A stretch of DNA of 64,000 nucleotides from Aureimonas jatrophae. Lineage in GTDB: Bacteria > Pseudomonadota > Alphaproteobacteria > Rhizobiales > Rhizobiaceae. This document shows positions 43,406 through 63,982 of this stretch, piece by piece. The position numbers and the translations under genes are program-made. The stretch spans positions 1-64,000 of the forward strand of contig NZ_FNIT01000012.1 in NCBI RefSeq assembly GCF_900104035.1. Direction: 5' to 3'. Under the pieces are notes generated by a model. It was given only the letters and a program-made list of their open reading frames with translations, was not told the DNA's origin and ran no database searches. Position 1 is the first letter of the stretch. Every line of letters starts with the position of its first letter.

Positions 43406-45648
43406 AGGTCGTCCTCTTCGTCGAAGCGGGTCTGCATGGGCTTGGCTTTCGCGGGTACCTCCGGTTCCGGTGCCGGACGGTCCGCCCTCCGACGCCTGCG
43501 GACGACGTCGGAAGGCGCCACGACCGTCGGGCGTTCGGGAGCCCGTGCGACGAGCCGCCCGTAGGGTTCGCTGTCTCCTAGATCCGGCAGACGGTCGGCC
43601 GGGTTCGACAGGGCCGCCCGACCCTTTTGATCCACGACCCGCATCACCCTGTCGTACGTCTTCTGCGTAAGCACGTGGTCCGAGATGCCCGCCGCGATCA
43701 TGGCCTTCAGTCCACCCTTGAACAGGTCGATGCGCGCCTGGATGCGGATCGGGTCATGAATCTCCGCCTGTTCCCGCGCGAAGTCGCGCACCTCCTTCTG
43801 CGCGAGGAGCCAGCTGGCGAGCGTGAGGCCCCGCATCTCCGGCTCCAGGCAGGGTACGTCGACGTAGCGTCGACCGCCGAACGCGTCCCTGTCCCTGACA
43901 TCCTTGGGCACGACCAGCAGGATCGATCCCAGGTCGTCGGGATCGACGAGGACGTCGACCTTCCGTTGCGGACGATGCTGCAGGAGCCAACCGATTTCGT
44001 CGGACAGGTAGTAGACGTTGCAGAAGAGGATGCCTTCGCAGCTGACCTTCCGCGACTCTCGGAAGCCGAAGATCCTGCGCCGCTCGTCGTCGGACAGGGG
44101 AAGCTCGATGCCTTCGTCGTCGCCGGCGAGCCTATCCCAGACGTCCCTGGGCGTCAGCCGCTCCAGCGCGACGTGCGGCGTCAGGTGGTATACGTCCACG
44201 ATCCAGCGGACGACGAAGAGGAAGAGCTCGTCGAACGTCAGGCTCGCGAACGCCTCCGCCGCGTAGTCGCCCTTCGCCACCACGTCGGACTGGGTCGCTC
44301 CGGTGAACCACGTCGGAAACGTCCGCGCCATGGTGCCGAAGAACCGTTCGATGTGCCCCCTCATCCTCGGATCGGCGTCGGGGATGGACCGTCCCGAGCG
44401 GAGCTGCCGAACGACCTCCTCGAACTCGAACCGGAAAGCGGGACCCTTGTCGGTGACGATCTGCGCGGGACGTCCGTGCATGGGCCAGCCGCCGCCGCAT
44501 CCGGCCTGACGCGCGAGCTCCGTCTTGTCCGTCGACAGAGACCTCAGGCATGCGATCGCGGTAGCCGCGCTCGGCCGCTCTTCCGACAGGTTGATGCCGA
44601 CGATCGCGGACGTGCAGCAGTCGATCGCGACGGTCAGCGTGCAGCGTCTGCGCTGGAGCGCGGCGATCTCCTGCTTCGACAGGTAGGCGAGCGTCTCCCT
44701 CGTGCAGAGCAACGTCTGCAGGTCGAACTCCCAGTCGTCGATCTCGACGCGCTGCATGGGACGTTTGCAGGGAACGCCCTTGCCGACCAATGCGAACCAG
44801 CGCACCGCCGCGTCCTCTCCCTCGCGTCCGAGCTTGACCGCGAACGGATCGAGGGCGTCGATACGCTTCCGGACGATGCGGGGTGCCGGCAGGCATAGGC
44901 GTTCGCCGGGCGACCGGGTCGAGTTGAGGAGGGCGACCGCGTCGTGGACGTCCTGGACCACCCTCGCCTTCACCGGCTTGGCGCGGGTCATGTATTGCTC
45001 GCAGGCCGCGTCGATGACGTCGCGGACCTCGGGCGCGAGCTGGTTGCGGTTGCCGCACCGGGAACGACCGCTCCGTAGGGCTCCGATCTTGTAGCCGCCC
45101 TTCTCGTAGGCGCGAACCGCGGCGTAGAGCGTGGATGCCGACGGCGTCGGCATCGTCCAGGCGACCCGCCGCTCCCGCCGCCCCTGCTCGAACGTCTCTT
45201 CGTACCACTTGAGGACGGGTCCGGCCAGGAGCTCGATCGCCTTGGACATGAGACGGGGGGAGCGTCCGACGCGGGACCTGCCCTCGTTGCCGTGTTCGGC
45301 CTCCAGCCTGAGAAATTCCCTCACCCACCTATGCCGCCAGTGGATGGCGGCCAGCTGACCGTCGTTCAAGTCCTTCAGATCCGAATCGTCGTTCCGGACG
45401 CGCAGCTTCGTCTCGATCAGCGAGTAGAAGCCGACCTCGTGGGTGAACTGCTTCCGCTCCCGGGCCTTGTCGATCTGCTCGTCGGACAGACGGACGAAGT
45501 GGTCCTCCACGACGTCGCCGTTGACGAGCTGGAGCACGTGCACGCGGTCGACCTTGCCGATGTATCGGTAGGCACGCCCCTGGTGGACGATGCGGTCGTA
45601 GGTCCCGAACCGGTACGACCGTTTCGGGCGGGGGACGTGCACGTTCAA
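43402..45648 (-). CDS. tnsB: TnsB-type DDE transposase
   Basis: This 748-residue transposase has DNA-binding helical domains in the first ~250 residues, then an RNase H-fold rve core with the DDE triad: Asp near 341 (VAIDCCTSA), Asp near 399 (IVTDKGPAF) and Glu near 433 (RGHIERFFGTM), with 34-35 residues between the last two. A Mu-type beta-barrel and a basic C-terminal tail follow (AKPMQTRFDEEDDL at the end). TnsB joins the 3' ends of the element to the target. The start is TTG 45648, supported by GGAGG seven bases upstream; no ATG fits as well. Confidence 0.88.
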   Translation of the reverse strand: MNVHVPRPKRSYRFGTYDRIVHQGRAYRYIGKVDRVHVLQLVNGDVVEDHFVRLSDEQIDKARERKQFTHEVGFYSLIETKLRVRNDDSDLKDLNDGQLAAIHWRHRWVREFLRLEAEHGNEGRSRVGRSPRLMSKAIELLAGPVLKWYEETFEQGRRERRVAWTMPTPSASTLYAAVRAYEKGGYKIGALRSGRSRCGNRNQLAPEVRDVIDAACEQYMTRAKPVKARVVQDVHDAVALLNSTRSPGERLCLPAPRIVRKRIDALDPFAVKLGREGEDAAVRWFALVGKGVPCKRPMQRVEIDDWEFDLQTLLCTRETLAYLSKQEIAALQRRRCTLTVAIDCCTSAIVGINLSEERPSAATAIACLRSLSTDKTELARQAGCGGGWPMHGRPAQIVTDKGPAFRFEFEEVVRQLRSGRSIPDADPRMRGHIERFFGTMARTFPTWFTGATQSDVVAKGDYAAEAFASLTFDELFLFVVRWIVDVYHLTPHVALERLTPRDVWDRLAGDDEGIELPLSDDERRRIFGFRESRKVSCEGILFCNVYYLSDEIGWLLQHRPQRKVDVLVDPDDLGSILLVVPKDVRDRDAFGGRRYVDVPCLEPEMRGLTLASWLLAQKEVRDFAREQAEIHDPIRIQARIDLFKGGLKAMIAAGISDHVLTQKTYDRVMRVVDQKGRAALSNPADRLPDLGDSEPYGRLVARAPERPTVVAPSDVVRRRRRADRPAPEPEVPAKAKPMQTRFDEEDDL

Positions 45649-45698
45649 CGAAATCCTCCGCGGATGGGACGGGTATAGGAGGAAAGGCTTCCCTCCTC

Positions 45699-46379
45699 CT
45701 ACACTCCAGCGTTGAAGAGACGGTTCACGACCATGGTTTCCGGAGCGATACGCAGACCCGAAGGGACCACGACCGCTCCCGACTGGATCAGCGCGACCGC
45801 GGCACGGAATCCGCGGGACCCCAGTCCGGTGGCGCCATTGACGATGCCGAGCGGGAAGGTTCGGTCGGCAGCCTGGAGCCAGCCGCGGACGATGCCCGTC
45901 GCCTCGACGTCCTGTTCGGCTCCGCAGGCGACGATCGTCCGTGCGTTGTCGACCCGGACGCCATCGAGGTGCCGTTCCGTCACGATGCGATACTCGTGCG
46001 CGAACGGGACGAGGCGACCGTCGGCGTCGATCACGAAGGCCTGTCGGGCGACGTGACCCAACAGTTCGAAGAGACCGTCGCGGACGGCATCGTCATGGTA
46101 CTTGACGGCGGTCGCCACGCGACGCCCCTTCGACGTGCGATGACGCTGGTCGAACCAGTGGCTGTGTTCGTCGGACTTCGCGTCCCTGAAGAAGACCGGC
46201 TTCAGCTGCTCTTCGATCTCGGTGACGTCGGGGTCGGCGATCAGGACATGGAGAGCCTCTTCCTCCAGTCCGCTCTCGAAGACGTACTGGCGACCGCGGA
46301 ACGGATCGACGACGAAGCCCGTCCGAGAGCCGCGCTTCTTCGGTGCGGGGCGACGACCCGCTCGCGAGCGTTCGATCAT
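45699..46379 (-). CDS. tnsA: TnsA-family endonuclease
   Basis: This 226-residue restriction-like endonuclease contains the TnsA N-terminal pattern VFESGLEEEALHVLIADPDV followed by EIEEQLKPVFF. Candidate catalytic residues are Glu35, Asp77 (HWFDQ) and Lys93 (TAVKY). TnsA cuts the 5' strands of the transposon, so its presence predicts cut-and-paste movement rather than cointegrates. The ATG at 46379 has AGGAG upstream; the frame is open further upstream without similarity. tnsB follows after 50 bases. It is the first gene of the tns operon, as in Tn7. Confidence 0.8.
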   Translation of the reverse strand: MIERSRAGRRPAPKKRGSRTGFVVDPFRGRQYVFESGLEEEALHVLIADPDVTEIEEQLKPVFFRDAKSDEHSHWFDQRHRTSKGRRVATAVKYHDDAVRDGLFELLGHVARQAFVIDADGRLVPFAHEYRIVTERHLDGVRVDNARTIVACGAEQDVEATGIVRGWLQAADRTFPLGIVNGATGLGSRGFRAAVALIQSGAVVVPSGLRIAPETMVVNRLFNAGV

Positions 46380-47832
46380 GGGGATGCACTCCTGTTGGGT
46401 TCGAACGACGCTCGAACGGTTTTCGGGCTTCCGAACCGCCGTCGCCGGCCCGCGTCCGCAGGTCTCGACGTAGGTGGTGGATCGGGATGCCGGCCTGGAT
46501 CTGGTGCGCCATGCGGATGGCGAGGGATGCACGGATGCGCATGGCGGACCTTCGTGGAGGACGACGCGGAGGTTCGATCGCCGGCAGTCGCCTGCCTGCG
46601 TCTGGTCTCTCCGGGAATTTCTGAAATGCGCTTCGCGCGCCCGAAGCATCGGGCGCGAACGTTCGGTGCACGTCGCCGTTCGAGTGCCTGGACGGTGCCG
46701 GTCGCAGGAGGCAGTGCGGAGGACGGGAAAGTACTCGCCCAGCAGCGATGCCTACGAGCGACCTACGTCTCTCGAATCGGACGGAAGGCGTCGGATGACA
46801 GTGGGAGGGCGATGGATGGCGACACGGGACACCCGCCGCGATCGCACGACGATCGAACCGCGGCCATCGTTTCCGGAATGCGGTCGGACGAGCCGTTCCT
46901 CAGGGTCGGCGGCAATTTCGTCCCGCAGGCCCGCCTCGGCAGGAGGACCGCATACCTTCTCCGGAAAGGATCAGGCTACCGTCGCCGGGAGGGCGGTCAC
47001 GGCTTTTCGTACGACCGTCCGTCGCCGGCTCGACGCCGGAAGGTTGATGCCGATGTGAGCGCTGGTCATGACCATGATCCAATCATTGCACGGAAACGTT
47101 AGTGTCGGGTTAACGACCCGTACCGAGCGCGTCGGAACCCGAGAATCTTTGCGGCGCTGGTCCTGTTCGTACCTATCGGCCTCGTCCTGTCGGCAATGCG
47201 AGCGTGATGCCGTGTCTTTCTGCGGTGCCGGTCTGAAGGAAAATCCCTCGCGTACGTCCCGTACGACGTGACGGATGCCGTCGGTGTGTACCGTCGACGC
47301 CAGACATGTCGGTACGGTCTCGCGATCGTCGCAGGACGGCACGGTGGTTGGGATCCAATGCCACGATGCATGGGAGCGACGTCCGTGACGGGATGTGCCG
47401 CTCGGGTACGACGCCGTCGGTTTCGATCCCAAGGGAACGGGGCAGGATGGATCGGATCGTATGGCGTTCGTTGGCAAGGCATTCGTCCCGACGCGATGTG
47501 TGGGCAATGAATGCATCGGAGATAAAAAAGTTGCATCAAGCATATTTTTTTGCAGAACCGGCGTACCGGCGATACGGATCTGAGGCGCTTGATTCGACCG
47601 AACCTACTCTTCGCATGGTCCGCGATCGGGGCTTCGGAGACAGCTGGGTCGGGGCGAGGCCGCCGCAGACTCCCTGGACGAACGCGTCCGGCCTCGAAAT
47701 CCAGGTCGAGTGGACCCTGTCACGTATTCGATCCGGATCCGGATCGGAAGACGGCGACGTCGGCGCATCACCCTCTACGGTTGAATTCGGACATTCCTTC
47801 GGGCAAGCATCGAACGTGGCCGGGGGATACGG
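46380..47832. other. 1.45-kb stretch upstream of tnsA without a supported gene
   Basis: All frames here are interrupted, lack ribosome-binding sites or have an unlikely composition, so I call no gene. The stretch must hold the tns promoter (minus) and the promoter of the plus-strand operon that starts at 47833. Visible items are a dyad CGGGT-TAACG-ACCCG near 47105-47120 and an AT-rich patch with A and T runs at about 47520-47555. In Tn7 itself the right end lies just before tnsA, so this is where such an end would be expected, but none was recognised. Confidence 0.45.
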
Positions 47833-48423
47833 ATGGACGACGAACTGCTGCTCAGGGGTGGAGGGCTCGCGGCGATCCGCACCTACGAGAGGTGCATCTC
47901 CCTGCTGGTCGAGGTTCTGGCTTCGACGGGGACGGACTTCAAACCGAGCGGAGTCGGACAACGGGCACGCTTCGAATCGGTCCGGACTGCGCTTTCCGAC
48001 AGACTGCGCGAACGTTCGAGTCGCGACGACATATGGAAGGCGGTGGAGCCGCTCGGCATCACGCCAGCCGCCGACGAACGGGACGCCGATCCGATCCTGG
48101 AAGGCATAGGACGGCTTGGTCGCTCCCGAGAGGTGATCACCGTCGAGGATCTGTCGCCGAACGAGGTCAGAAGCGCGATGTGCGCCGTGGTGGATGCACG
48201 CTACGGTACCGAACGGCTGATCCTTCGCGGACGGGAATTCTTCCGGGCTTCGCTCGACGTCCTCCAGGCCGATGGGGTGATGCCGAGGCGGATCAACGTC
48301 GTGCAGGGAAACTTCCACAGGCTGTTCGGCTATCTCCAGGAACTGATCTTTGAGGACGGAAGGATCACGATCCACGGCGTCGGACGCAAGCTGGACACGC
48401 TGAAGATCCGGATCGGCCCCTAG
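47833..48423 (+). CDS. First gene of the Druantia-like operon, unknown function
   Basis: I recognise no family for this 196-residue soluble, mainly helical protein. It contains ISLLVEVLASTGTDFKPSG near residue 22 and ends RKLDTLKIRIGP. The ATG at 47833 has GGGGGA a few bases upstream. The next gene starts about 200 bases later on the same strand, so it may be an accessory or regulatory component of the helicase operon. That role is not shown. Confidence 0.55.
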   Translation: MDDELLLRGGGLAAIRTYERCISLLVEVLASTGTDFKPSGVGQRARFESVRTALSDRLRERSSRDDIWKAVEPLGITPAADERDADPILEGIGRLGRSREVITVEDLSPNEVRSAMCAVVDARYGTERLILRGREFFRASLDVLQADGVMPRRINVVQGNFHRLFGYLQELIFEDGRITIHGVGRKLDTLKIRIGP

Positions 48424-48621
48424 CTTCGTGAGCGACTTCGTAGAAACCGCACCGCCGCGAGCGCGGACGCGCCCGTCCACGGCGCCGTCGATCCCGGACC
48501 GGTCCTGGAACGTGCCCCCCTCCCGTTCGCGGAACAGTACGGCGTGCCGCGTTCCGGTCCGAAGCATGGGCACCGAGAAGTTTCCGCGGGGACGGAATGT
48601 CCCGAGGTTCGCGACAGGTCG

Positions 48622-51264
48622 ATGCTGAAAACGAAGCGACCAGGATTGTCTCCGTACTGGAGCTGGGAACTGGCGCTGACGCGCTACTATCTCGGCACCA
48701 GGGGATCCGAGGGATCGTCGGCCCTGGAGTTCGTGGACGCACAGCCCCGGCGGCTCGCGGAAGCGATCGGACTGCCGCCGTCGGACGGGGATGCGGCCAG
48801 GACGAGCTTCCTGGGCGTGTTCCGTCGCGACGGTCTCGTGGATGCGTTCGGCCATGGTTGGAGCGTCCGGCCACCGGACAGCCTGCCCGTGATGGGCTAC
48901 TTCAACTATCTCGTCTTGTCCTGCTACGTGGCATCCGTCGCCCCTGAGGTGGCGCAGTCCGGCCTGTTTCCCGAACGGCTGAGAGAGATCCTCGGTTGGG
49001 ACCAGGGAATCTCCTCCCTGGAAGGTCTGGCCACCCTCTGGAAGAACGCCGCCGTCTGGTGCGACGGCGCGAGGGCCGCGGGACGGGACGTAAGGCCGAT
49101 CGCGTTGCCGGATCCCGGCTGGATGAAGCGCATCGGACATTCCATCCGCATCGCCTTTCCATCGCGACACGATCTCGACCGCATGGGACGGTCGTTCTCG
49201 TCTCTCGCAGCCGTCCCGGCACTCGACTCTCACCGCCTTTCGGATGCGGTCCGCGCCGAGATCGGTCGTCAGAGATGGTCTCAGGGCTTCATCCGTGCGT
49301 TCGAGGACTTCGATCGGCGGCGCGCACGGGGCGAGCGGCTGCTCGCCGACCATGCGTTCTGGCTGGCGATGGCGGCGCTCAGGCCGCCTGTCGAGCGCGA
49401 CGACGCGGGTCGACGCTTCGAGTTGGACGTATCGACCGATGCCGACGGGCTCGACGCGTTCGTTCTGACCACGGATGCGGAGGACGTCCTGATGGCTCTC
49501 GATGTCTCGATCGACGAGCGACCGGGTTCGCCGGTCTCCGTCGACCTAACGCTCGATCAGGTCCTTGAGCTGTTTCGTGGACGGTCTGCGTCGCTCCCGC
49601 CTGATCTCCTGCGCTGCCACTCGGAAGGCTTCGTTCCCTTCGTCGAAGTGGAATGGGGCGTCTGGCGTGCCGCCAGGCACATCGAGGGCCCGTCGGTACG
49701 CCCCCTGGTCCGAAGGCGGGAGCGACCGGTCGGCGCGAGCGCTGCCGACCGGAACGCATGCTGGCGGCTCCATCCCGTCATGTCGGTCTCCGAAGCGGCA
49801 CGGCTCGCGGTAGGAACCGGGCGCCGGGATCCGTTGCACGCGACGGACGTGTCCCGCGTGCGGGTGGTCGGAGGCATCCGCGTCGGCGACGCGTACCTCG
49901 GACGGTCCGGGTTCCTACCGACGGTCGAGGCCGTGTCCGGATGCGACGCATCCATCGTGACCGTGCAGTCGACGACCGGCGCTCCGACGGTCCGGGTCGT
50001 CGCAGGCCGCGTCGAACTGGAATGCGCGGAGCCGATCGAGGGCGTCTGGCGCATCCCGATAGAGGAGGCTGGGTCGGTCCGCTCCTCGCCGGCGCTGGCG
50101 TTCCAGCGGGATGCACCGGAACGCGTTCCGAAGACGGCGGACAGCCTGGCTCCCGGATGGCGCATCGCGGAACCCGTTCCGGACGGTCTGACGCCGACGA
50201 CGATCACCGGCAACGCGACTGACCTGGTGGAAGCCTCCACCGAACGGCGCCTCTGCGATCTTCTTGAGGTCCTGGTCGCCGCGGGACGAAGGGGATGGGA
50301 CGAGGCGGGACTGCACAGGGTGCTGTCCGTCGTCGCGCCGATCAAGCGGGCGACCTGGGATCTTCTCCGTCTCCTGGTGGACGGGGGCTGGCTGGAAGGG
50401 CGGGTCTGCCCGGTCTGGCGGGCCCGCCGCTGGTTCCTCGTACCGCCGCGACTCGTCTCGTTCGCGGACGGTCGGACTTTCGCCCTGGAGGGAGCGGCGG
50501 GCGGGCGCATGCGAGACCGCTTCCACGAGACCGCACGTCGCCAGTGTGGCAGTTCGGGAATTCAGGAAGGTGGTGCGGGCTGGCGGGTACCGTTGCCGGT
50601 GGCGGAGGTCGCGGACGGGGTCGGTTTCGTGCGCGGCATGGGACTCCCGGTGGTGCAGCCGGAGACCGAGGTCCCTCCCGCCGATGGCCGACCGAGCTTC
50701 CCTCCGAGTCTGTATAGCGACGAGTTCCGATCGACGGCGTCGGTCTGGAGCTGGAGTTCCGGTCGTTTCGTCGGTCCGGTCGGCGGAGGGGGCGGAGCGG
50801 TCGTCCTATCGAGACTGACCACGCCAAGGCCCAACGCGGCGGACATCTACCGCATCGACACCGGAGATGCCCCTCCTTTGTTGCTGGACGGCCGATCGGC
50901 TGCGCTGATCGTAGCTCACAGCATGGCCGGACGCGCCCTCTTCCGCTTCGATGCCACCCTCGGTGCGTTCGACCGTCTCGCCCACGACGGTGGCCTCCCG
51001 CCGATCGTCGCGCGCCATCTCCGGTTGCGGACGCTTAGGGCTCCGGAGATGGTGTTCGGGGTGGACGGGTCGTGGATCTATCGAACGCCCTGCAGCCCTG
51101 CCGACGCCGGAATGCTGTCCGGATGGCTCGGTCCCGCATTCGAGGGACCGTCGTCGGACGGAGATCGGGGAACCGGACTGCGGGAAATGGCGATGGCGAG
51201 AGCGAGGGGAGCGAGGTCGGAGTTGCTGGCACGAAGCATCTGGAAGGCACCGCGTACGTGCTGA
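48622..51264 (+). CDS. Large protein of the Druantia-like operon (possible DruF/DruG counterpart)
   Basis: This 880-residue soluble protein has no recognised catalytic motif. It begins SPYWSWELALTRYYLGTRG. Its middle looks beta-rich (residues ~380-560), and a helical, winged-helix-like part lies near 560-620 (LLEVLVAAGRRGWDEAGLHR). Start: ATG 48622 is preferred, with AGG six bases upstream; the frame is open to 48544. Its stop overlaps the start of the next gene, so the genes are coupled. Druantia type II systems have two such large uncharacterised proteins before the helicase. I infer correspondence from order and size only. Confidence 0.6.
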   Translation: MLKTKRPGLSPYWSWELALTRYYLGTRGSEGSSALEFVDAQPRRLAEAIGLPPSDGDAARTSFLGVFRRDGLVDAFGHGWSVRPPDSLPVMGYFNYLVLSCYVASVAPEVAQSGLFPERLREILGWDQGISSLEGLATLWKNAAVWCDGARAAGRDVRPIALPDPGWMKRIGHSIRIAFPSRHDLDRMGRSFSSLAAVPALDSHRLSDAVRAEIGRQRWSQGFIRAFEDFDRRRARGERLLADHAFWLAMAALRPPVERDDAGRRFELDVSTDADGLDAFVLTTDAEDVLMALDVSIDERPGSPVSVDLTLDQVLELFRGRSASLPPDLLRCHSEGFVPFVEVEWGVWRAARHIEGPSVRPLVRRRERPVGASAADRNACWRLHPVMSVSEAARLAVGTGRRDPLHATDVSRVRVVGGIRVGDAYLGRSGFLPTVEAVSGCDASIVTVQSTTGAPTVRVVAGRVELECAEPIEGVWRIPIEEAGSVRSSPALAFQRDAPERVPKTADSLAPGWRIAEPVPDGLTPTTITGNATDLVEASTERRLCDLLEVLVAAGRRGWDEAGLHRVLSVVAPIKRATWDLLRLLVDGGWLEGRVCPVWRARRWFLVPPRLVSFADGRTFALEGAAGGRMRDRFHETARRQCGSSGIQEGGAGWRVPLPVAEVADGVGFVRGMGLPVVQPETEVPPADGRPSFPPSLYSDEFRSTASVWSWSSGRFVGPVGGGGGAVVLSRLTTPRPNAADIYRIDTGDAPPLLLDGRSAALIVAHSMAGRALFRFDATLGAFDRLAHDGGLPPIVARHLRLRTLRAPEMVFGVDGSWIYRTPCSPADAGMLSGWLGPAFEGPSSDGDRGTGLREMAMARARGARSELLARSIWKAPRTC

Positions 51265-53312
51265 GGGACGAAACGGATCCGGTCCGTCGGGACATCTTCA
51301 TCGGCGAACTGGCCTTCAACAACGAGCAGCGCAGGCTCTCCCGTGTCGTGGGCCGGGCGGTCGCGACCCGCACCGGTTGGCAGCCGCTTCCCGGCGATCG
51401 TCTTCCGCTGGAGGGGCACGCGTTCAGCACGGATCCGAGGCTCTTCGGCAAGCGGCCCGGCTACGTCGTCCTGTTCACCGTCGCCAGGAACGAGCGTCCG
51501 GACGCCAGGGACCGGTTCGTCACGGACGACGTCTGCGAGCCCTACGAGTACGTGGAGCGGCTGACGCGTCACACGCCCGAGATGCTCCGCGAGGTGGTGC
51601 TCGAACGCGGCATCGACCTGGGACACCAGAACGACGGCGCGGTGGTCGTCCCCGTCGGGCCGGACCTGGTCGCCCTGCCGCCGATCGTAAGGTCCGCGCA
51701 GACCGGTCGCTGGACGCTGTCGCACGCGGCCGAGGCGGAGGCGGTCGAGACGTTCCGGAACGAGTTCCGGAGGAACGACCTCTTCGAGATCGCCGGCCGC
51801 CGCTTCGTCCTGCCCGGGCGCGTTCCGGACGTTCCGACGGGCGCCGTCAACTGGCAGAACGATGCCGAGTTCCTACAGGCCGTTCTCCGGCGTCTCCGAA
51901 GGAACGGGGACTTCGGCTCCGGTTCGGAGGACTTCCGGTTGACCGAGCGGCTCGCAACGAGACTGTTCTCGCTGTACCGCGACGCGGACGCGATAGGCGG
52001 TCGCACCCAGGCGCTGCTGGCCGCGAGGGCACGTCTGGAGGAGTTCGTGCCGAAGCTGTCGAACGGCAGCGGAGCCGTCGCCGCCATCGCCGACGCGCTG
52101 CATTCCCACGACGGAGTGCGCAAGGCGCTCGTTGCGCTGACGGAAGCCGAACGCGCCGAACTCCGTCGCCGGGAAGGCGAGGCCGTCCGGGCCGAGACGG
52201 TACAGGCCGTCGAGACGGAGATCGGCGAGCGCATCGCGCTCCGGGACGATCTCGGAAGGGAGGCCGAACGCGTCGAGACGTTGGTGGCGTCGCGTTCGGA
52301 ACGGCTCGCGGAGATCGAGGCATCCATCGCCCGGGCCACGAGCCTGCTGGAGGGACGCGTCGCCACGTTCGTCGGCGAGGTGCGAGAGGCGGGACGACTG
52401 GTCGCGAACGTCCTCGGTTCGGACGATGCCGGGTCCGTCTCCGCCGCGGGCGTCGGACGGGTCGCCGGGCTCGCACCCTGGGCGCGTGCCGACCGTCCGG
52501 CTCCCGTCACGTCGATCGGAATACCGGATCTGGCGACCGTCCTGACGGCGAGGGCGAAATCGCTCGGTCTGGAAGCGGACGTCTTCCGAACGCTGGACAT
52601 CCACTGCAGGAGTGGCGACGTGCCCGTGCTGACCGGGGACTCCGTCGTGACGATCCTCAGGGGCTACGCGGACGTGATCGCCGGCGGACGCCTCGTCCGG
52701 CAACCCCTTGATCCCTCGGTTCTCGGTCCCGAGGACCTCTGGCGCCATCCCGGATCCGGTCAGCCGACCGCCCTAGCGGCGGCCTGGCAACAGGCTGACG
52801 CGGCGCCGTCGAAGTTCCTGCTCGTCGCGCTCGACGACCTGGATCGGGCGTCTCTCTCGGACTGGCTGCCCGCGTTCCGCACCGCCTTCCGCGAAGCGAG
52901 ACCGCGGAACCTCCTCGTCGTGGCCACCACGGCGCTTCCGAACTCGTCGGACCGAGAGGTCGGCGACCGACATCGGCGCCCCCTTCCCGGAACGTCAGGG
53001 GGAAGCAATGCCCTGGTCGCCGCACTGATGCGTGTGGGGACCGGGAGAACGACCGAGCTGGAACCCGTTCCGTCCCTGCCTCCGATATCCGCGGACGTAC
53101 GCGCCGTCCTCCTCTCGCTGGCCTTGGCGGAGGGGGTGTCTGGTGCCGACGCCGGCGAACGTCTCCTGACGCTCCATGCGGCCGCGACGGCGTGGGGCGA
53201 CGACGAGACGGCATGCCGGCTGGCGGTCGGGTGCCTGACGGGTCGGAACGCACGAGCCGCCCTGGTGGTCCAGCCCACACCGACGAACGAGAACGCGAGG
53301 ACGGGTACATGA
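51258..53312 (+). CDS. Second large protein of the Druantia-like operon (possible DruF/DruG counterpart)
   Basis: This 684-residue protein has an N-terminal beta-rich part (~1-200) and a coiled-coil-like Glu/Arg-rich centre at about residues 290-400 (AERAELRRREGEAVRAETVQ is an example). An ATPase-like C-terminal part contains KFLLVALDDLDRASLSDWL near 530, in which DDLD could be a Walker B-like strand, although no clear Walker A is visible. The start is GTG 51258 with GGAAGG upstream, overlapping the previous gene by seven bases; its TGA overlaps the helicase ATG (ATGA). Translational coupling across the operon suggests a multi-subunit complex. Confidence 0.6.
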   Translation: MLRDETDPVRRDIFIGELAFNNEQRRLSRVVGRAVATRTGWQPLPGDRLPLEGHAFSTDPRLFGKRPGYVVLFTVARNERPDARDRFVTDDVCEPYEYVERLTRHTPEMLREVVLERGIDLGHQNDGAVVVPVGPDLVALPPIVRSAQTGRWTLSHAAEAEAVETFRNEFRRNDLFEIAGRRFVLPGRVPDVPTGAVNWQNDAEFLQAVLRRLRRNGDFGSGSEDFRLTERLATRLFSLYRDADAIGGRTQALLAARARLEEFVPKLSNGSGAVAAIADALHSHDGVRKALVALTEAERAELRRREGEAVRAETVQAVETEIGERIALRDDLGREAERVETLVASRSERLAEIEASIARATSLLEGRVATFVGEVREAGRLVANVLGSDDAGSVSAAGVGRVAGLAPWARADRPAPVTSIGIPDLATVLTARAKSLGLEADVFRTLDIHCRSGDVPVLTGDSVVTILRGYADVIAGGRLVRQPLDPSVLGPEDLWRHPGSGQPTALAAAWQQADAAPSKFLLVALDDLDRASLSDWLPAFRTAFREARPRNLLVVATTALPNSSDREVGDRHRRPLPGTSGGSNALVAALMRVGTGRTTELEPVPSLPPISADVRAVLLSLALAEGVSGADAGERLLTLHAAATAWGDDETACRLAVGCLTGRNARAALVVQPTPTNENARTGT

Positions 53313-56300
53313 TCGATCCGATCGGAGGCTTCGAACGCCTGCGGGAGTTCTTCCAGAGCTATCTCGATACCGCGTTCCGGATACGGAACGACGATCTGGC
53401 CGAAGTCCGCCGATCGCTCATGGACCGGTTCGGGAACCTCGCCACCGATCCTCTCATGGAACCGGTCCCACGATACGAGGTCTGCGGATATCCGCTCGAA
53501 CGTCTCGTGGACGATTTCGAGGACAATCCGATCGGCGACATGCCGGTCGCCGCGAGGGAGGCGTTCGTCGAACTCGTCCTGTCCGGTCTCTTTCCGTCGG
53601 CTCCTGCCGAAGGCGGTCGGATCGGACGAAGGAGCCTCTACGAGCCCTACGGGCATCAGATGACGATGCTTCGCCGCGGCACCACCCCGGGATGTCCGGG
53701 CATCGTCACCTCGGGAACCGGATCGGGCAAGACCGAGTCGTTCATGCTGCCGATCGTCGCCGCCATCGTCCGCGAGGCGATGGGATGGCCGCGGCCACCC
53801 GACGGATACCTCGGTCGTCGCTGGTGGGGCACGGAGGATGCGGAGTTCGAGCGCAAGAGGCGGGGCGAACCGCAGGGCAGGCCTTCCGCCCTCCGGGCGC
53901 TCGTGCTGTATCCGATGAACGCCCTGGTCGAGGACCAGATGACCCGCCTGCGACGGACACTCGACTCGCCCGAGGCCCGGGACGTCATGGACCGCCGCCT
54001 CGGCGGCAACCGGATCTTCTTCGGACGCTACACCGGCGCCACTCCGGTCACCCAGTTCAGACGCCATCCGCGCAAGACCGGCCGTCAGGAGGAGCGGCGG
54101 CGGATTCGCAAGACGGCGCAACTCGCCGAATGCATGGTGGAGTTCCGGAAGGGGCACGATCTGGCCGTCTCGCACGACTGCCAGACCGGCGGACGACCGG
54201 AACCGACGCGATACCTCTTCCCGGCGGTGGACGGCGGGGAGATGGTGTCGCGCTGGGACATGCAGGCGGATCCGCCCGACATCCTCGTCACCAACGCGTC
54301 CATGCTCGGCACGATGCTCGCCCGCGAGGTGGAGGATCCCATCTTCGCGCAGACCGCGGCCTGGCTCGCAGAGGACAAGGACGCCTACTTCTACCTGGTC
54401 CTGGACGAACTCCATCTCGTCCGAGGGTCCGCCGGCACCGAGACGGCGGGCCTCGTCCGCGCGCTCGTCCATCGCCTCGGCCTCGACCGCGACGAGACCA
54501 GGCACAAGCTCCGCATCCTGGCTTCCAGCGCCTCGCTTCCCGTCGACGGCGAGGACGGGGAGCGCAGCATCCGGTACCTGGACGATTTCTTCGGTCCCTT
54601 CGGCACGTCGCGGCACGCCGGCGACCCCGGGTTCGCCGATCGGGCCGAATGGCGAAGCTGCATCGTCCCGGGCGCACCGATCCTTCCGGACGAACCCGTC
54701 GGCGGTCCCCTGTCGTGCGACGCCTTCGTGGAACTCGTCGACGCGGTGGCCCCGTCAGGAGACATGGCGCGGCGGATCTCGCCGACCGATCCACCGGTGC
54801 GCGACGCGATCGCGTCCTGCGTCTCCGCCCTCGGCGGCCCTTCGGGACTCGCGGAGGCGGATGCGGCCGTCCGTGCCGTGGAACTCGCGGCCGCCCGACT
54901 GGCCTGGTCGTGCGTCTCGGAGGACGCGCGAGGGGGCCGGCGTCCGAGAGCGACCACGCTCGGCATCATGGCGGAACGCATCTTCGGATCCTCTGGAGAC
55001 CGAGAACGGAAGGCGCTCAGGGGTCTGACGCTCCTGCGCGGCATGGGTGATCGCCTAGAGGAGACCTACGGGACCGCGCCGGACGGCGAGATCCCGAGCT
55101 TCCGCATGCATCAGTTCGTCCGCAGCATCGAAGGCCTCTTCGCCACGCCCGAACGGGTCGAGGGCGTCGACGGTGGAGTCCGCTTCCTCGGCGCGAGCGT
55201 CGATCGGGGCATCACCCACACGTCCGGCACCGGCTTCGTCAGGCGCAAGTTCGAACTCGTCTACTGCGAGGCCTGCGGCGAGACCTTCGTCGGCGGGATG
55301 AGGGGAACGCAGGCCGACGGTCGATCGGAGATCGAGCTCTTGCCGTCTTCGCCAGACCTGGGCGAGCTGCCCGAAGCGGGAGGCATCGGGCATTACGAAC
55401 AGTTGAGCTATCGCGAGTTCGCGATGTTCTGGCCATCGGTGGCGAGACCGGTCGATTCCGGCGACAACGAGGCCTGGCCCGAGGCGACGTTGGATACGGG
55501 CGCCGGGGTCGTCTCCCGCGGATGGCGTACCGACGACGACGAGGGATACGTCCGGGGCCGGATGTTCCACTGTGGCGGCACGCGTTCGAAGGGCCGCCCG
55601 CTGGACGCGTCCGGCACCGCGGGGCCGGACTGCTGCCCGTCCTGCGGCGTCAGCTACGCGATGAGGAAGAAGCCACGGTTCTCGCCGATCCGGAGCTTCC
55701 GCACTGGCTTCAACAAGACGTCGCAGCTGCTCGCCACCGAGATGTTCGAGACCCTGCACGCGAGCGGCGCGCTCGCGAAGATCGTGGCGTTCTCGGACAG
55801 CCGGCAGGACGCGGCGAAGGCGGCCCGGGAGATCGAGCGCGCCCACTACCAGGATCTGAGGCGTCTGCTGATCATGGAGATCGCCGCACGTCTCACCTCC
55901 GAGACCGACGCGTCCGCCGAGATCGCGAGAATGAAGGCGGAGATCGCGCGTCTGAACGAAGAGGAGCGGTGGGACGAGATACCGCCGGTCGCCGCGAGGA
56001 TCGGCATGCTGTCGACGGCCAGCGGCAAGGACCGCATCCCCCTGAAAGCCATCGTGGAACGGCCGGCGGCGGAGGCCGGAACGACGCCCGGTCCCATGAT
56101 GCAGGACATGCTGGCGCTCGGCGTCCATCCGACCGACGACGTAGGCATGCGACGGTACGGACGGTTCGCCTGGCAGGAGCTCTTCTCGCGCGACGGCGAA
56201 CGCTTCGCCTGGACGGTAGGCGGCGTCCACGCGAACGATCGCGCCGAGATCCGCAACACGATCGTGCGTGGGCAGGATCCGCACGTCGACGAGGTGCTGT

Positions 56301-59182
56301 TCTCCAAGTCCTACTTCGCTCTCGAGGAGACGGGGCTCGGCTACCCGACCCTGTTTCCCAGGTACCCTACGCCCGAAGACCATCAGGCCATGGACGCCTG
56401 GCTGCGCGTCTTCGGCGATGCCTACCGCATTTCGTCGAACCGGTACGTGACGGACGAATTCACGCCCTGGATCGATCGGGTGCCGACTAGGAACCGCGTC
56501 ATGGAAACGGCGCGCCGGTTCGCGCCCGAAGCACCCGAGGCCCTAGTTTCGAGGGTTTTGGAGAGGTTGCGCGGTCTCGGCCATGCGGAGGGTCGGATCG
56601 ACGCGGCCGAACTCGGCGTGAAGATGGCCAGGCCAGGCGATCCGTACTGGCGCTGTGACAGATGCTCCCGCGTACATCTGCACAGGGGACTGGAGATCTG
56701 CACGCGCTGCCGCGAACCGCTGCCCGTCGGAAGAAAGGGGGAGGTGCGGGAACTCTGGCGGTCCAGCTTCCTGGCCGGCCGGATCGTGCGTTCGCGGACC
56801 GAGAACCTTCCGAGCTTCCGCCTCCGTTGCGAGGAGTTGACCGGGCAGACCGGCAGTCCCGCGGAACGGCTTCGCCTCTTCAAGGGCATCGTCGTGCCCG
56901 ACGGGACGGGCGTCGACGCCGGTCTCCAGCGTGCCGCCTCCGAGATCGATCTCCTTTCGGTCACGACCACCATGGAGGTCGGCATCGACATCGGTGCCCT
57001 GCAGGCCGTCTACCAGGCGAACATGCCGCCGCAGCGCTTCAACTACCAGCAGCGCGTCGGACGTGCGGGTCGCCGGGGACAGGCCTACTCGTTCGTCGTC
57101 ACCCTGTGCCGCAGCCGAAGCCACGACCTCCACTACTTCCGCACGCCGGAGGCCATCACGGGAGATCTTCCCCCTCCCCCCTTCCTCGCGGTCGACCACG
57201 TCGACATTCCCCTTCGACTGGTGAGGAAGGTGTGGTTCACGGCGGCATTCGCGACGGTACGGGATGCCGAGGGTGCCGCGTTCCCGGAGGAGAACGGCTC
57301 CGCCGATCCACACGGGGAGTTCGTCCCGGCTGCGCTGTACTACGCGGACGATTCTCCTTGGCCGGCCAGGCTCCGCGCGGCCCTCGTCGCGACCCGGGAC
57401 GTGCGCGACGGGTTCGCGGGCACCATCGGCAGGGGTATCCCGGGACGGCAGGAAGAACTCGTCGCCGCGAGCGGGGTGGACGCCGTCATGGAAAGGATCG
57501 GCTCGCTGGCGACCGGCGGCGCGACCTACGGCGGTGGCTTCGCGAACTTCATGGCGGAGAAGGGGCTGTTCCCGATGTACGGCATGCCCACCCGCGTGCG
57601 GAACCTGTATCTCGGCCTGCGGAGAGATGGCGCCGCCAGGGTCGCCTGGGACGGCGTCGACAGGGATCTGGACCTCGCCATCTTCGAGTTCGCGCCGGGC
57701 CAGACGCTGGTGAGAGACAAGCAGGTACACCGTGCGGCCGGCTTCACGGGAAGCCTCCTTCCGCCGAGGCTGAGTCCGACGTATCCCGCCACCCTCGATC
57801 CCGGCCCGTCGTTCTGGGATGGCGAACGGCTCGTGGCGGAATGCCCGGGATGTCGGGGAAGGACCCAGCACGAGCCGGGCTTCTTCGAACCCTTCGAATG
57901 CGTGGACTGCTCGACCGAGGTAGAGGAACGACATACGAAGACGTACGTCGTTCCCTCGGGTTTCAGGACCACGTTCCGTCCGGTCGACGTCGAGGACGAC
58001 GAGGAGTCTCCGCCCGTCCGCCGGGTGGTCGCGGCCGAGATAAGGGAGGTCGTCGCTTCCGAGGTGCCGGGCACCAACATGAGCCTGCATGCCGGCCCCG
58101 GCGCCACGGTACTGAGGCTGAACGACGGTCCTCCCGCGGCCGACGAGGACGGAAGCGGTGGCTACGCCGCCCAGCGTGTCCGCCAGACCTTCGTACAGGT
58201 GCCGGCGGGAATGCGTGTCCGACGCCCGAGGCTCCTGAACCAGTGGATGTCGAACGACGCGGTCCTCGACCCTCAGGCCTGGGACGTGCCGACGGGCGAC
58301 GAGGCGGAGATCGCGGACGGCATCCGGCTCTTTTCGAGCAAGCCGACGGATGCCCTGTATCTGAAGCTCCGCACCATTCCTTCCGGGCTGAGGCTGGGAG
58401 CGCTGGACCGAACGGCACCGAACGCGGCGGTAAGGGCCGCGGCGGTGAGCGCCACCCAGATGCTGCTACAGAGGTCGGCTCTGGAACTCGACGTCGATCC
58501 GGACGAGTTCGAGCCTCTCGAACCCCGCGTGCCCGGCGGACGGCCCATGCTCCAGATCGCCGACCACCTCGTCAACGGGGCGGGCTTCAGTCGCCGTCTG
58601 GCCGAGGCGGAAGGAGACGGGCGACCGACGATCGTCAGGCTGGTCGCATCCATGCTGGACGATCCGGACGATCCGCTCGTCCGGAACTGGCGTTCCGAAG
58701 AACATCGTTCGGATTGCACCCAGGCCTGCTACCGCTGTCTCAGACGATACGGGAACCGCCAGTACCATGGTCTGCTCGACTGGAGACTGGGCCTGGGCTT
58801 CCTGCGTGCCACGGTCGATCGGTCGTACCGGTCCGGCCTGGACGGGCGTTGGGACCGATATCCCGAACTCGTCGACTGGCCGACCATGGCGGCCGCGGTC
58901 CGCGACGAACTCTGCCGTCTGGCAACGGGGACGCGTTCACCGGTCGCTCTGGGCAGCATGCGACTGCCCGGCATCCTGGAACGCACGCCTGGCGGCGATC
59001 GGCAGTACGTGATGGCACACCCATTGTGGAGCGTGGAGCCGGACGACCTCGCCGACGGCTCCCTCGCCTCGGCGGCAACCAACGGCTCCGAAACCTACTT
59101 CGTCGACCTGTTCGACGCGGCCCGCCGCCCCGTACAGGCGTTGGAGGCTGCTCGGAGGAGAACGACGCCGATCGATCGGTAA
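53309..59182 (+). CDS. Giant DEAD/DEAH helicase with DUF1998-type C-terminus (DruE-like)
   Basis: This 1957-residue SF2 helicase has Walker A TSGTGSGKTES near residue 135, LYPMNALVEDQM near 200, the DEAH-type box VLDELHLV near 366, motif III ASSASLP near 408, and a second RecA domain with TTMEVGIDIGALQAV and RVGRAGRRGQ near 1225-1260. Cysteine pairs occur in the middle (CEACGETF; CDRCSRVHLH with CTRCREPL; CPGCRGRT with CVDCST). A DUF1998/MrfA-type cluster CTQACYRCLRRYGN lies near 1810. This size and order are those of DruE of Druantia defence systems; DISARM DrmA/DrmB is the main alternative. It is the last gene of the coupled operon. Confidence 0.8.
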   Translation: MIDPIGGFERLREFFQSYLDTAFRIRNDDLAEVRRSLMDRFGNLATDPLMEPVPRYEVCGYPLERLVDDFEDNPIGDMPVAAREAFVELVLSGLFPSAPAEGGRIGRRSLYEPYGHQMTMLRRGTTPGCPGIVTSGTGSGKTESFMLPIVAAIVREAMGWPRPPDGYLGRRWWGTEDAEFERKRRGEPQGRPSALRALVLYPMNALVEDQMTRLRRTLDSPEARDVMDRRLGGNRIFFGRYTGATPVTQFRRHPRKTGRQEERRRIRKTAQLAECMVEFRKGHDLAVSHDCQTGGRPEPTRYLFPAVDGGEMVSRWDMQADPPDILVTNASMLGTMLAREVEDPIFAQTAAWLAEDKDAYFYLVLDELHLVRGSAGTETAGLVRALVHRLGLDRDETRHKLRILASSASLPVDGEDGERSIRYLDDFFGPFGTSRHAGDPGFADRAEWRSCIVPGAPILPDEPVGGPLSCDAFVELVDAVAPSGDMARRISPTDPPVRDAIASCVSALGGPSGLAEADAAVRAVELAAARLAWSCVSEDARGGRRPRATTLGIMAERIFGSSGDRERKALRGLTLLRGMGDRLEETYGTAPDGEIPSFRMHQFVRSIEGLFATPERVEGVDGGVRFLGASVDRGITHTSGTGFVRRKFELVYCEACGETFVGGMRGTQADGRSEIELLPSSPDLGELPEAGGIGHYEQLSYREFAMFWPSVARPVDSGDNEAWPEATLDTGAGVVSRGWRTDDDEGYVRGRMFHCGGTRSKGRPLDASGTAGPDCCPSCGVSYAMRKKPRFSPIRSFRTGFNKTSQLLATEMFETLHASGALAKIVAFSDSRQDAAKAAREIERAHYQDLRRLLIMEIAARLTSETDASAEIARMKAEIARLNEEERWDEIPPVAARIGMLSTASGKDRIPLKAIVERPAAEAGTTPGPMMQDMLALGVHPTDDVGMRRYGRFAWQELFSRDGERFAWTVGGVHANDRAEIRNTIVRGQDPHVDEVLFSKSYFALEETGLGYPTLFPRYPTPEDHQAMDAWLRVFGDAYRISSNRYVTDEFTPWIDRVPTRNRVMETARRFAPEAPEALVSRVLERLRGLGHAEGRIDAAELGVKMARPGDPYWRCDRCSRVHLHRGLEICTRCREPLPVGRKGEVRELWRSSFLAGRIVRSRTENLPSFRLRCEELTGQTGSPAERLRLFKGIVVPDGTGVDAGLQRAASEIDLLSVTTTMEVGIDIGALQAVYQANMPPQRFNYQQRVGRAGRRGQAYSFVVTLCRSRSHDLHYFRTPEAITGDLPPPPFLAVDHVDIPLRLVRKVWFTAAFATVRDAEGAAFPEENGSADPHGEFVPAALYYADDSPWPARLRAALVATRDVRDGFAGTIGRGIPGRQEELVAASGVDAVMERIGSLATGGATYGGGFANFMAEKGLFPMYGMPTRVRNLYLGLRRDGAARVAWDGVDRDLDLAIFEFAPGQTLVRDKQVHRAAGFTGSLLPPRLSPTYPATLDPGPSFWDGERLVAECPGCRGRTQHEPGFFEPFECVDCSTEVEERHTKTYVVPSGFRTTFRPVDVEDDEESPPVRRVVAAEIREVVASEVPGTNMSLHAGPGATVLRLNDGPPAADEDGSGGYAAQRVRQTFVQVPAGMRVRRPRLLNQWMSNDAVLDPQAWDVPTGDEAEIADGIRLFSSKPTDALYLKLRTIPSGLRLGALDRTAPNAAVRAAAVSATQMLLQRSALELDVDPDEFEPLEPRVPGGRPMLQIADHLVNGAGFSRRLAEAEGDGRPTIVRLVASMLDDPDDPLVRNWRSEEHRSDCTQACYRCLRRYGNRQYHGLLDWRLGLGFLRATVDRSYRSGLDGRWDRYPELVDWPTMAAAVRDELCRLATGTRSPVALGSMRLPGILERTPGGDRQYVMAHPLWSVEPDDLADGSLASAATNGSETYFVDLFDAARRPVQALEAARRRTTPIDR

Positions 59183-59395
59183 CCACGCCGACGAGCCGAG
59201 ACGGGAAACGCGACCGATACCGGTCGGCCGGACCGGATCGTCCCGAAGTCGGAGCCTTTACGCCAGTTGCCGGCCGGCCCGGTTCCGACTTCGATACCGA
59301 AAGGACAGCCGCGGCAGGAAACGTCGCTTGACTGACGTCACGTAGTATGGCGACATTTAGACGCCTAGAGAAAGCAAGATGACGAGGGGGTTCGC

Positions 59396-61285
59396 ATGCT
59401 TCCTTTCTTTGCTGTCGCATTGCGTCTATTCCCAAGCATTGTTTCACTCCTTACCGACGACAGGACGATCCGCAACGCCGCCGCCATGAAGGAGGCGGTG
59501 GACGTCGCCGTGAAGGAGATCACGGACGCGAAGACGCCGCAGGAGGCCGACGATCGTCTCAAGGACCCCGGGCGCGCGGACCGGTTCAAGCTGCGTATGG
59601 CCGAACTGTCGATCGAGGCGGAGCGGATCGGTTCTCAGGACCTCGCGGCCTACAATCAGGCGGCGAACGAGAGCACCGCATCGTCCCGCGCGACGTTGCT
59701 GGAACTCCTGAACAAGCCGGAGTCGGGCTGGATCAGCTCGACGCCGGCGGTCCTGTCCTACCTCGTGGTCGCCGGCTTCTTCGTGCTGATCGTGCTTCTG
59801 ATCACGGAATCCGTCACGATCGACGCAGAGGGTCGCGTCGCGGAACTAGTCTACATCTGCGTCGGAGCGGTGACGGCGGGCTTCTCGACCGTACTGAACT
59901 TCTGGCTCGGCTCCTCGCTGGGGTCGCGTCGCAAGGACAGTTCCGTAGCGCTGTCGGGCGCGGTGGACAAGCTACGGGAACTCGACGATCCGCCCGCCCC
60001 TTACGGTCCGGCGACCGGAGGTACCGCGAACGAGGGCGGCGGGGTCTCGCGCCCGTCGGGAGACGTAGCTCGCGACGGTACGCCCTCCAGGACGGAGCGG
60101 AGATCGCTACCAGCGGCGCTGGCGGGCGTCGGGCGCTCGACGGACCCGTCCACCGTCAACGTCCGGAGGGACGTGCCTCGCGTCGGGGAAACCCCGGCCA
60201 GCTTTCGCTACAACAATCCCGGAGCCCAGTATCCAAGCCGCGAAGCGGCACGCTTCGGCCAGATAGCCTACGGCGTGATAGGAGGCGGCCACAAGATCGC
60301 GGCCTTCCCCTCGGTCGTGAACGGCGCGGCGGCCAACTTCGACCTTCTGTACCGTCGTTATACCGGCATGACGATCCACGAGGCCGGAAGGAAGTGGACG
60401 GGACGCAACGCGTTCGGCGTCCCGGGCTACGACGACAACCTCGTCCTTTCGCAGGAGATGCTGACCGACCGCGAGCAGGCGATCGCCCTCCTGAAGGCCA
60501 TCGCCGAGCGCGAGTCGGGACGGGGCGTGAACCTGACTTCCGAGCAGTGGCGCTACGCACACGAGATGTTCCGCAGCCGGAGCGCCGATGCCTTCCTGGC
60601 TCGCTACGGTGCGGACGTGGGACGTGCGATCGCGCCGGTCCGCCCGGACGGTGCGCCCGACGAGCTGCTTGAGGTCCTGCTGACGGAGGCCTGCGAGAAG
60701 GCTGGATACGAACTCGACCGCGGCGAGGGCGAGATCAACGTCGTCTACGTGGAGGGAATGAACGAGGACGGTTCGCCCAACAACGACGAGCCCAACGTCT
60801 TCAACGACCTACGCTGCCTCGTCGGCTTCCGGGACGGCGCCCCGTTCATGGTCGGCAAGTGGAACGCCACCACCGAACCCGGCTTCTACTACGACAGGGA
60901 TCACCCCATGCGTCGCGAAGGCGCGGCCCGGATCAAATTCGGCCAATATAAGGCTTGGAGGGTCGGCATGCACAAAGGCGACTATGAGGCGTTGGTACAG
61001 GTCAGTGACGTGACGGTCTGCAGGGACCTGAACCGCGACATGGAGCGCGTCGGCGACATGGAGCACACCGGCGACGACTTCGGCATCAACCAGCACGGCG
61101 GCTACGACCGCCCGCAGGGCGATATCGGCAAGGCGAGCGCCGGATGCCTCGTCGGGCGCACGATGGCCGGCCACGACCAGTTCATGGCGCTGGTCAAGCA
61201 GGATCCGCGCTACCTGGCGGATCACGGCTACGTATTCCGTACGACCATCCTGCCAGCAGCGGACGTGACGCGTGTCGAAAGTTGA
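59396..61285 (+). CDS. Membrane-anchored fusion of a murein-hydrolase-like and an L,D-transpeptidase-like domain
   Basis: This 629-residue protein begins with a holin-like section: a hydrophobic N-terminus, a helical segment and two membrane helices at about residues 120-140 and 155-175. After a flexible linker comes a region near 265-420 that resembles phage muramidases (FRYNNPGAQYPSREAARFGQ; IAAFPSVVNGAAANFDLLYR). The C-terminal ~180 residues end with a His567...Ser-Ala-Gly-Cys583 arrangement (NQHGGYDRPQ; KASAGCLVGR), like the YkuD L,D-transpeptidase site. GAGGGGG precedes the ATG at 59396. A lysis or cell-envelope effector role in the defence island is inferred. Confidence 0.6.
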   Translation: MLPFFAVALRLFPSIVSLLTDDRTIRNAAAMKEAVDVAVKEITDAKTPQEADDRLKDPGRADRFKLRMAELSIEAERIGSQDLAAYNQAANESTASSRATLLELLNKPESGWISSTPAVLSYLVVAGFFVLIVLLITESVTIDAEGRVAELVYICVGAVTAGFSTVLNFWLGSSLGSRRKDSSVALSGAVDKLRELDDPPAPYGPATGGTANEGGGVSRPSGDVARDGTPSRTERRSLPAALAGVGRSTDPSTVNVRRDVPRVGETPASFRYNNPGAQYPSREAARFGQIAYGVIGGGHKIAAFPSVVNGAAANFDLLYRRYTGMTIHEAGRKWTGRNAFGVPGYDDNLVLSQEMLTDREQAIALLKAIAERESGRGVNLTSEQWRYAHEMFRSRSADAFLARYGADVGRAIAPVRPDGAPDELLEVLLTEACEKAGYELDRGEGEINVVYVEGMNEDGSPNNDEPNVFNDLRCLVGFRDGAPFMVGKWNATTEPGFYYDRDHPMRREGAARIKFGQYKAWRVGMHKGDYEALVQVSDVTVCRDLNRDMERVGDMEHTGDDFGINQHGGYDRPQGDIGKASAGCLVGRTMAGHDQFMALVKQDPRYLADHGYVFRTTILPAADVTRVES

Positions 61286-62821: not shown

Positions 62822-63982
62822 CTACGCCACCGAGCGTAGTCGGAGATCGTGGACGAAGTGTGCGTTCTTTCTCAGGGGAGCTGCCTCGTATCGTGCGACG
62901 AAGCCGGACAGTGCCCGCCGCGACAACGGCTTGCCAATCGACAGTCCGAACTCCGACAGGCTGCCGAGCGTCGAGGCGGAGGAGCCTTCCCGACGCACGT
63001 CGACCGCCATCGATCGCTCTCCCGGTCCACCCCAGGCCGCGCGAGGCAGCTTCGCCCCGCTCGGAAACGGTCTGCCTTCGATCGACGAGGCTCGCGTCGT
63101 CGCGAGACGATGCCCCAACCATTCGACGACGGGAACGCTGACGGCGTTTCCAACAAGGCGCCATCGCTGACGGTCGCCGTTCCGCAAGGAGATGGCGGCT
63201 TCGGTCCAGCCCTCCGGAAACCCTTGCAGGCGCTCCGCATCCCGCAGCTCCGGCGTATGGAACGTACCGGCCGTGCGATCCCATATCGCGGGCGGCGACG
63301 GTATGCCGATGTTCGATCCTCCCTTCAGGGGGGGGATGGCTTCCGGAGCCCAGCCTAGGCCACGCGTTCCTTCCGTCCAGTAGAATCCTACGAAGGCGGG
63401 GTCCGCCGGTAGATCCAGAGCCGGATGTCCGACGCCCTCAAGAAGGACGGAGGCAGCATCGTCATCCCGACATGCCAGCACGAAAAGTCTACGTCTTCGT
63501 TGGGGAAGACCGAACATGCGCGTGTCTAGGACGCGGTATGCCCAACGGTATCCCAACCTCGCCAGATTGGTCGTCACGTGTCGGACGGCTTCGCCACCGG
63601 CGAGATCGAGAGCGAAGGCGACGTTTTCGAGGAGGACGTAGCGCGGCCTGACGGACGCCCGTTCGATCAGACGGAAGACGTGATCGACGAGACCGGAGTT
63701 CTTGCCGCGGATGCCGGACCTGCGTCCGGCCAAACTGATGTCCTGACAAGGCCATCCGGCCGTCACGACGTCGCACGGGGGAAGGCCGGCGAGCGACGTC
63801 ACGTCCGGGGCGACGTCGATGCCCGGCAAGTTTCTGCCCAGGACCAGACGAGCGGCGGGATCGTTCTCACAGGCGAGAAGCACATCGTGGCCAGCCTTCC
63901 GCATGCCGACCTCGAAACCGCCGATGCCGCTGAAGAGGCTCACGACCCTGAGTGGTCTACCGATTGCGTCGGAGTGTTCCAT
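62822..63982 (-). CDS. C5-cytosine DNA methyltransferase (possible DruM-like)
   Basis: This 386-residue enzyme has the ordered C5-methylase motifs: FSGIGGFEVGM (I), GWPCQDIS with the catalytic Cys (IV), ENVAF (VI), QRRRRLFVL (VIII), a short target-recognition region with RLQGFP, and VGNAVSVPV (X). It methylates cytosine in a DNA motif that cannot be predicted. The 60 residues after motif X are unusual and basic. It lies 3.6 kb beyond the helicase on the opposite strand. Druantia type II includes a cytosine methylase, so it may protect self DNA; an orphan methylase is the alternative. A 14-bp palindrome covers its start codon. Confidence 0.85.
   Translation of the reverse strand: MEHSDAIGRPLRVVSLFSGIGGFEVGMRKAGHDVLLACENDPAARLVLGRNLPGIDVAPDVTSLAGLPPCDVVTAGWPCQDISLAGRRSGIRGKNSGLVDHVFRLIERASVRPRYVLLENVAFALDLAGGEAVRHVTTNLARLGYRWAYRVLDTRMFGLPQRRRRLFVLACRDDDAASVLLEGVGHPALDLPADPAFVGFYWTEGTRGLGWAPEAIPPLKGGSNIGIPSPPAIWDRTAGTFHTPELRDAERLQGFPEGWTEAAISLRNGDRQRWRLVGNAVSVPVVEWLGHRLATTRASSIEGRPFPSGAKLPRAAWGGPGERSMAVDVRREGSSASTLGSLSEFGLSIGKPLSRRALSGFVARYEAAPLRKNAHFVHDLRLRSVA

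Follow-up and report, generated by a model that had tools for sequence, protein, structure and literature searches.

Does the four-gene operon of Aureimonas jatrophae in which a large helicase gene follows two long genes and a short one encode a recognised type of Druantia system, and what would its 196-residue first gene product, here called X196, contribute? The operon lies in a stretch of 64,000 nt (assembly GCF_900104035.1, contig NZ_FNIT01000012.1, positions 1-64,000 of the forward strand), referred to below as the window, and an earlier note on this DNA had described it as a Druantia-like operon of translationally coupled genes whose first member could be a new component. A literature search found no paper on Druantia in Aureimonas, and the titles and abstract openings of the Druantia literature, a scope outside which most subscription papers including the original Druantia description fall, mention neither a type II system with an additional gene in first place nor a detached DruM. 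In the accessible portions of PMC13192584 and PMC13316683, mechanistic Druantia work concerns type III. Whether DruFGE can act, and can be restrained, in the absence of DruM, and whether it is under the control of small helpers confined to one lineage, can be asked directly in loci whose methylase is detached, among them one that has an additional conserved gene. The reading that we favour, and regard as somewhat probable, is that of a putative anti-phage system of Druantia type II whose methylase is encoded outside the operon and which has one extra, lineage-specific gene in an accessory role.

Gene content and class of the operon

All four open reading frames of the earlier note are present on the plus strand at the sizes that it gave, namely X196 (47833-48423), druF (48622-51264; 880 aa), druG (51258-53312; 684 aa) and druE (53309-59182; 1957 aa), the last encoding an SF2 helicase. 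Upstream of the starts adopted for druF, druG, and druE the frames stay open (906, 746, and 1996 aa if counted from the earliest possible start), and the proteins read from the adopted starts align with relatives over their full length. A coding GC signature was found in all four frames, including X196, where GC is 0.78 at the third and 0.45 at the second codon position. Translational coupling is consistent with the overlaps between druF and druG (7 nt) and between druG and druE (4 nt, ATGA), but does not extend to X196, which is separated from druF by a 198-nt gap. No sigma-70-like promoter site was found in 46600-59450, an uninformative result given that 0.7 would be expected by chance.

Comparison with the Druantia profiles, as the note had suggested, matched three of the four proteins and left the 196-residue protein without a match. 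DruE matched PADLOC DruE2 (PDLC00014) with 2090 bits over residues 1-1951; DruF matched DruF2 (PDLC00019) with 339 bits (E 1.3e-101) over residues 14-876; and DruG matched DruG2 (PDLC00025) with 51 bits (E 2.7e-14) over residues 287-564 only, full-length relatives being present in plasmid loci. A motif scan identified the ATPase motifs GSGKT, DELH, SASL, and QRVGRAGR in DruE and found no Walker A motif in DruG. The DUF1998-type C-terminus ascribed to the helicase is only partly upheld, as the Pfam match there is weak (MZB, 18.3 bits against a curated cut-off of 24.2), and a cysteine cluster, CTQACYRC, does start at residue 1803. Since the high DruE2 score is accompanied by DruF2 and DruG2 partners, the operon is, as judged from its profile matches, Druantia type II and not merely Druantia-like. 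With PADLOC, no match to DruA-D or DruH was found among the three smaller proteins, which speaks against types I and III, and no DruL match was listed for the four proteins, which together with the presence of DruG2 speaks against type IV.

Genomic setting

The region is a defence island. Tn7-like genes lie upstream of the operon on the minus strand (40222-46649) and encode TniQ (52 bits), a TniB/TnsC-type ATPase (TniB, 54 bits), a TnsB-type integrase (Mu-transpos_C, 22 bits against a cut-off of 21.7, with rve below cut-off), and a weak TnsA-like protein (15 bits against a cut-off of 110); genes for TnsB, TnsC, and TniQ next to the operon are what a Tn7-like carrier, with Druantia as possible cargo, would have, and no convincing terminal inverted repeats were found around the Druantia genes in the stretches compared. 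Also on the minus strand are a gene for a 608-aa caspase-domain (Peptidase_C14) protein with weak beta-propeller matches (38260-40086), near the Tn7-like genes, and a 130-aa DDE transposase-family stretch (36311-36700) that is likely an insertion-sequence remnant. The left island edge was placed at about 35465-35910; similarity to the nearest genome of the genus stops at 35465, beside what looks to be a truncated, probably GFA-like gene.

Downstream of druE, a plus-strand gene (59396-61285) encodes a 629-aa protein whose C-terminal part resembles phrog_33083, a phage endolysin family, and phrog_3000. Two cytosine-5 DNA methylase genes follow on the minus strand, M1 (62822-63982) and, past the window end, M2 (contig 64064-65224). 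Further defence genes lie beyond these at contig 65258-75210 (L010:5258-15210) and encode an N6 methylase, a HATPase protein with a restriction-enzyme-type match, and NsnABC, the last known as the Menshen system; a Vsr gene lies in the plus-strand reading frame at contig 70679-71539. In Rhizobium sp. WSM4643 (L008:5646-7637), a gene located between the methylase gene and druF encodes an ATP-binding protein that is a relative of this HATPase protein (27% over 110 aa).

Methylases and the missing operonic DruM

The accessible portion of PMC8565338 terms DruM and DruG requisite for type II, and no DruM is present in the X196-druF-druG-druE operon; the earlier note mentions neither this absence nor the DruM-like methylases downstream. 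M1, which lies 3.6 kb downstream of druE on the opposite strand, matched Pfam DNA_methylase (144 bits), the generic type II methylase profile MTase_II of PADLOC (388 bits; M2, 364 bits), and DruM2 (124 bits; M2, 100 bits). To place these genes, we used a comparison set of 102 loci that consisted of 6 plasmid loci, the best 80 loci from the genome collection, and 16 viral-contig loci, many of the latter only distantly related. Purpose-built profiles detected DruF together with DruG in 51 of the 102 loci of this set, with its best 80 genomic loci; L042, a further locus with an M1-family methylase, was left out of the 51 for want of a detected DruG. Among these 51 loci, best 80 genomic ones included, a methylase directly precedes DruF in 28 (21 under a first rule, 28 under a wider rule that allows overlaps of up to 250 nt and gaps of up to 500 nt), an M1-family methylase is located elsewhere in 9, all without a DruM in the operon, a different methylase is located elsewhere in 9, and no methylase was seen in the remaining 5, 4 of them with fewer than 1200 bases on one side. 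The absence of an operonic methylase from all 9 M1-family loci, as compared with its presence in 28 of the 42 others in the set with the best 80 genomic loci, gives a Fisher p of 0.0003, a value that ignores shared ancestry. As a methylase is operonic in 28 of the 51 loci and M1-family enzymes occur in 9 that lack an operonic DruM, it is plausible, from these gene associations, that M1 is DruM or its stand-in.

The main alternative is that M1 and M2 belong to a neighbouring modification module, with the N6 methylase, the HATPase protein, and Vsr, and that this Druantia has no methylase. Genes of that module lie directly beyond M2, and M1 scores higher with MTase_II than with DruM2, which, like its distance from druE and its strand, counts against M1 as DruM. 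In addition, of 384 other genomes of the class (with up to 5 candidates scored in several genomes), 4 yielded an M1-family methylase, and all 4 lack a full-length DruE2 match, one having a match of 99 residues. Against this alternative, M1-family methylases lie beside DruFGE in 9 of the 51 loci from the set with the best 80 genomic loci, including the only other locus with X196, and this frequency exceeds that in the class genomes (p 1e-6, a comparison that sets loci against genomes and ignores shared ancestry). M1-type methylases are therefore enriched beside Druantia type II and not tied to it, and we regard assignment of M1 and M2 to the neighbouring module as possible, though doubtful. The Vsr gene does not discriminate here, since it was found in 18 of 28 loci with an operonic methylase, 9 of 9 M1-family loci, 8 of 9 loci with another methylase, and 0 of 5 without a methylase (best 80 genomic loci included), and is thus common in these loci and not special to M1.

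The X196 gene

The statement of the earlier note that the first gene corresponds to no known subunit holds, in that X196 has no match in PADLOC, Pfam, NCBIfam, or PHROGs. PDB profile matches to a short chain dehydrogenase (E 0.039) and to dystrophin (E 0.097) were taken as chance, and AlphaFold predictions, with mean pLDDT values of 34.6 for a two-sequence alignment and 40.0 for the C-terminal half alone, were both too poor for use. Only one convincing homologue was found, with 84% identity, in Aureimonas sp. ME7 (locus L015); it has a single PHROG match, with an E value of 0.23. X196 was not found in 296 other genomes of the family (among the candidates scored, up to 10 in several genomes) and has no match in plasmids, phages, or viral contigs. 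In 396 other genomes of the order, a single weak partial match was found (candidates scored, up to 8 in several genomes); this match, in genome G1009 (E 8e-4, about 81 residues; 60 bases inspected), was taken as chance among 397 genomes. Differences between X196 and its ME7 homologue are mostly synonymous (dN 0.088, dS 0.326; 16, 17, and 43 differences at the first, second, and third codon positions), which argues that X196 is a real gene, and this substitution pattern indicates that it is under purifying selection.

In the ME7 locus the gene order X196-DruF-DruG-DruE is conserved, with protein identities to the window of 84%, 89%, 83%, and 93%, respectively, and an M1-like methylase (61% identical to M1) and a Vsr gene are present as well. 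It differs in that its methylase gene is divergent from X196 and immediately precedes it, with Vsr, DUF262-like, and HEPN-like genes alongside (the latter two named by likeness to annotated neighbours), and in that no Tn7-like genes are present within the stretch compared. DNA identity is 87% in X196, 86% in the gap that follows it, and 86-90% in the three other genes, as compared with 45-57% over the 300 nt before X196 (45% over the last 150 nt) and about 50% past the DruE stop; within X196, the initial 30 nt show only 63% identity. A blastn comparison of the joined contig with the ME7 locus yielded three matches, the X196-DruE block (47866-59182), a stretch of M1, and a stretch within Vsr genes, and the parts common to both loci are therefore X196-DruFGE, the methylase, and Vsr, arranged differently; the 629-aa endolysin-like gene lies outside the shared block. 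X196 and DruFGE have thus stayed linked in two loci with different flanks. As the two loci are close relatives, this sharing may reflect shared descent. Of 21 genomes of the genus, the two in which X196 was found (A. jatrophae and Aureimonas sp. ME7) are also the two with DruE2, a co-occurrence with a p value of 0.005 that rests on 2 genomes and ignores shared ancestry. The suggestion that X196 could be a new component is supported by this association with DruFGE in both genomes that have it, its role being a prediction from gene context.

The same observations bear on whether X196 has anything to do with Druantia at all, as it could be a passenger of unrelated function that lies before druF in one lineage, the operon being an ordinary type II Druantia. 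Its restriction to two related genomes and the gap that follows it would fit a passenger, as would the absence of any common small gene before druF in the 17 other detached-methylase loci of the set with the best 80 genomic loci, a comparison filtered by length and base composition, which can drop true genes. By contrast, the edge of DNA similarity coincides with the start of X196 despite exchanged flanks, and the gene is under apparent purifying selection; we thus consider a passenger unlikely. X196 might alternatively be not a regulator but a physical subunit in a complex with DruFGE, such as an adaptor or a protein that senses a phage trigger. This would agree with its retention in one block with DruFGE and with the accessible portion of PMC13192584, in which Druantia types differ in the partners around a shared DruE. 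X196 was nevertheless not found in the 101 other loci with a DruE relative that were compared, including the other 50 with DruF and DruG (set including the best 80 genomic loci), so type II would work without it, and it is not coupled to druF; a subunit role appears quite unlikely to us. Given its small size, its place at the head of the operon, its lack of coupling, and its absence from the other type II loci compared, we infer that X196 more probably has an accessory or regulatory function than that of a core subunit, and a lineage-specific accessory gene is the best reading of its apparent role.

Proposed mechanism

The favoured reading, type II Druantia with an outlying methylase and an accessory first gene, is supported by the DruE2, DruF2, and DruG2 profile matches, the purifying selection on X196, the edges of the shared block, the co-occurrence in 2 of 21 genomes, and the M1-family counts; the two-genome distribution of X196, its lack of family or structure support, and its lack of coupling to druF count against it. 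By analogy with type III work, DruE would be the engine, DruF and DruG its partners, and the methylase the self mark. For type III, the accessible portion of PMC13192584 proposes DruH as a sensor and DruE as a helicase-nuclease effector on replication intermediates, and that of PMC13316683 reports that phage DNA circularisation and replication are blocked. In the system considered here, DruE may work on phage DNA as a helicase powered by ATP, with the type-specific partners DruF and DruG relaying the trigger, and an M1-type cytosine methylase would mark the host's own DNA, as relatives of these proteins suggest. X196 would act as an accessory, most likely by tuning the timing or strength of DruFGE action, under conditions in which the methylase and DruFGE do not share a message; this is the weakest step. 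A more specific version, which we put forward tentatively and think rather unlikely, is that X196 is a dedicated component of a type II subtype whose methylase is gone from the operon, and that it restrains DruFGE expression or activity in place of a co-transcribed DruM.

Comparison with known systems

A DISARM, Dpd, or housekeeping MrfA-type helicase cluster is scarcely credible, even though YprA-type helicases are common to all of these according to the accessible portion of PMC12458937, as DruE scores 23 bits with DrmA, in a 61-residue helicase stretch, and 58 bits with DpdJ, as compared with 2090 bits with DruE2, and its partners are DruF and DruG; on profile scores, the DISARM-type helicase with unmatched partners against which the earlier note had weighed its reading is thus not what the operon encodes. 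The other DruE profiles gave 1152 (DruE4), 440 (DruE1), and 242 bits (DruE3). The operon resembles Druantia type IV (DruE, DruF, and DruL) in having a DruF and a DruE related to DruE4, but its DruE fits type II far better, and it has a DruG, which is absent from type IV in the accessible portion of PMC8565338. With type II, given as DruMFGE in the accessible portion of PMC13316683, it shares the canonical order DruF-DruG-DruE with overlapping genes and a cytosine methylase in the neighbourhood; it differs from type II in that the methylase lies outside the operon, downstream and on the other strand, in two copies, and in that an extra 196-aa gene stands in first place.
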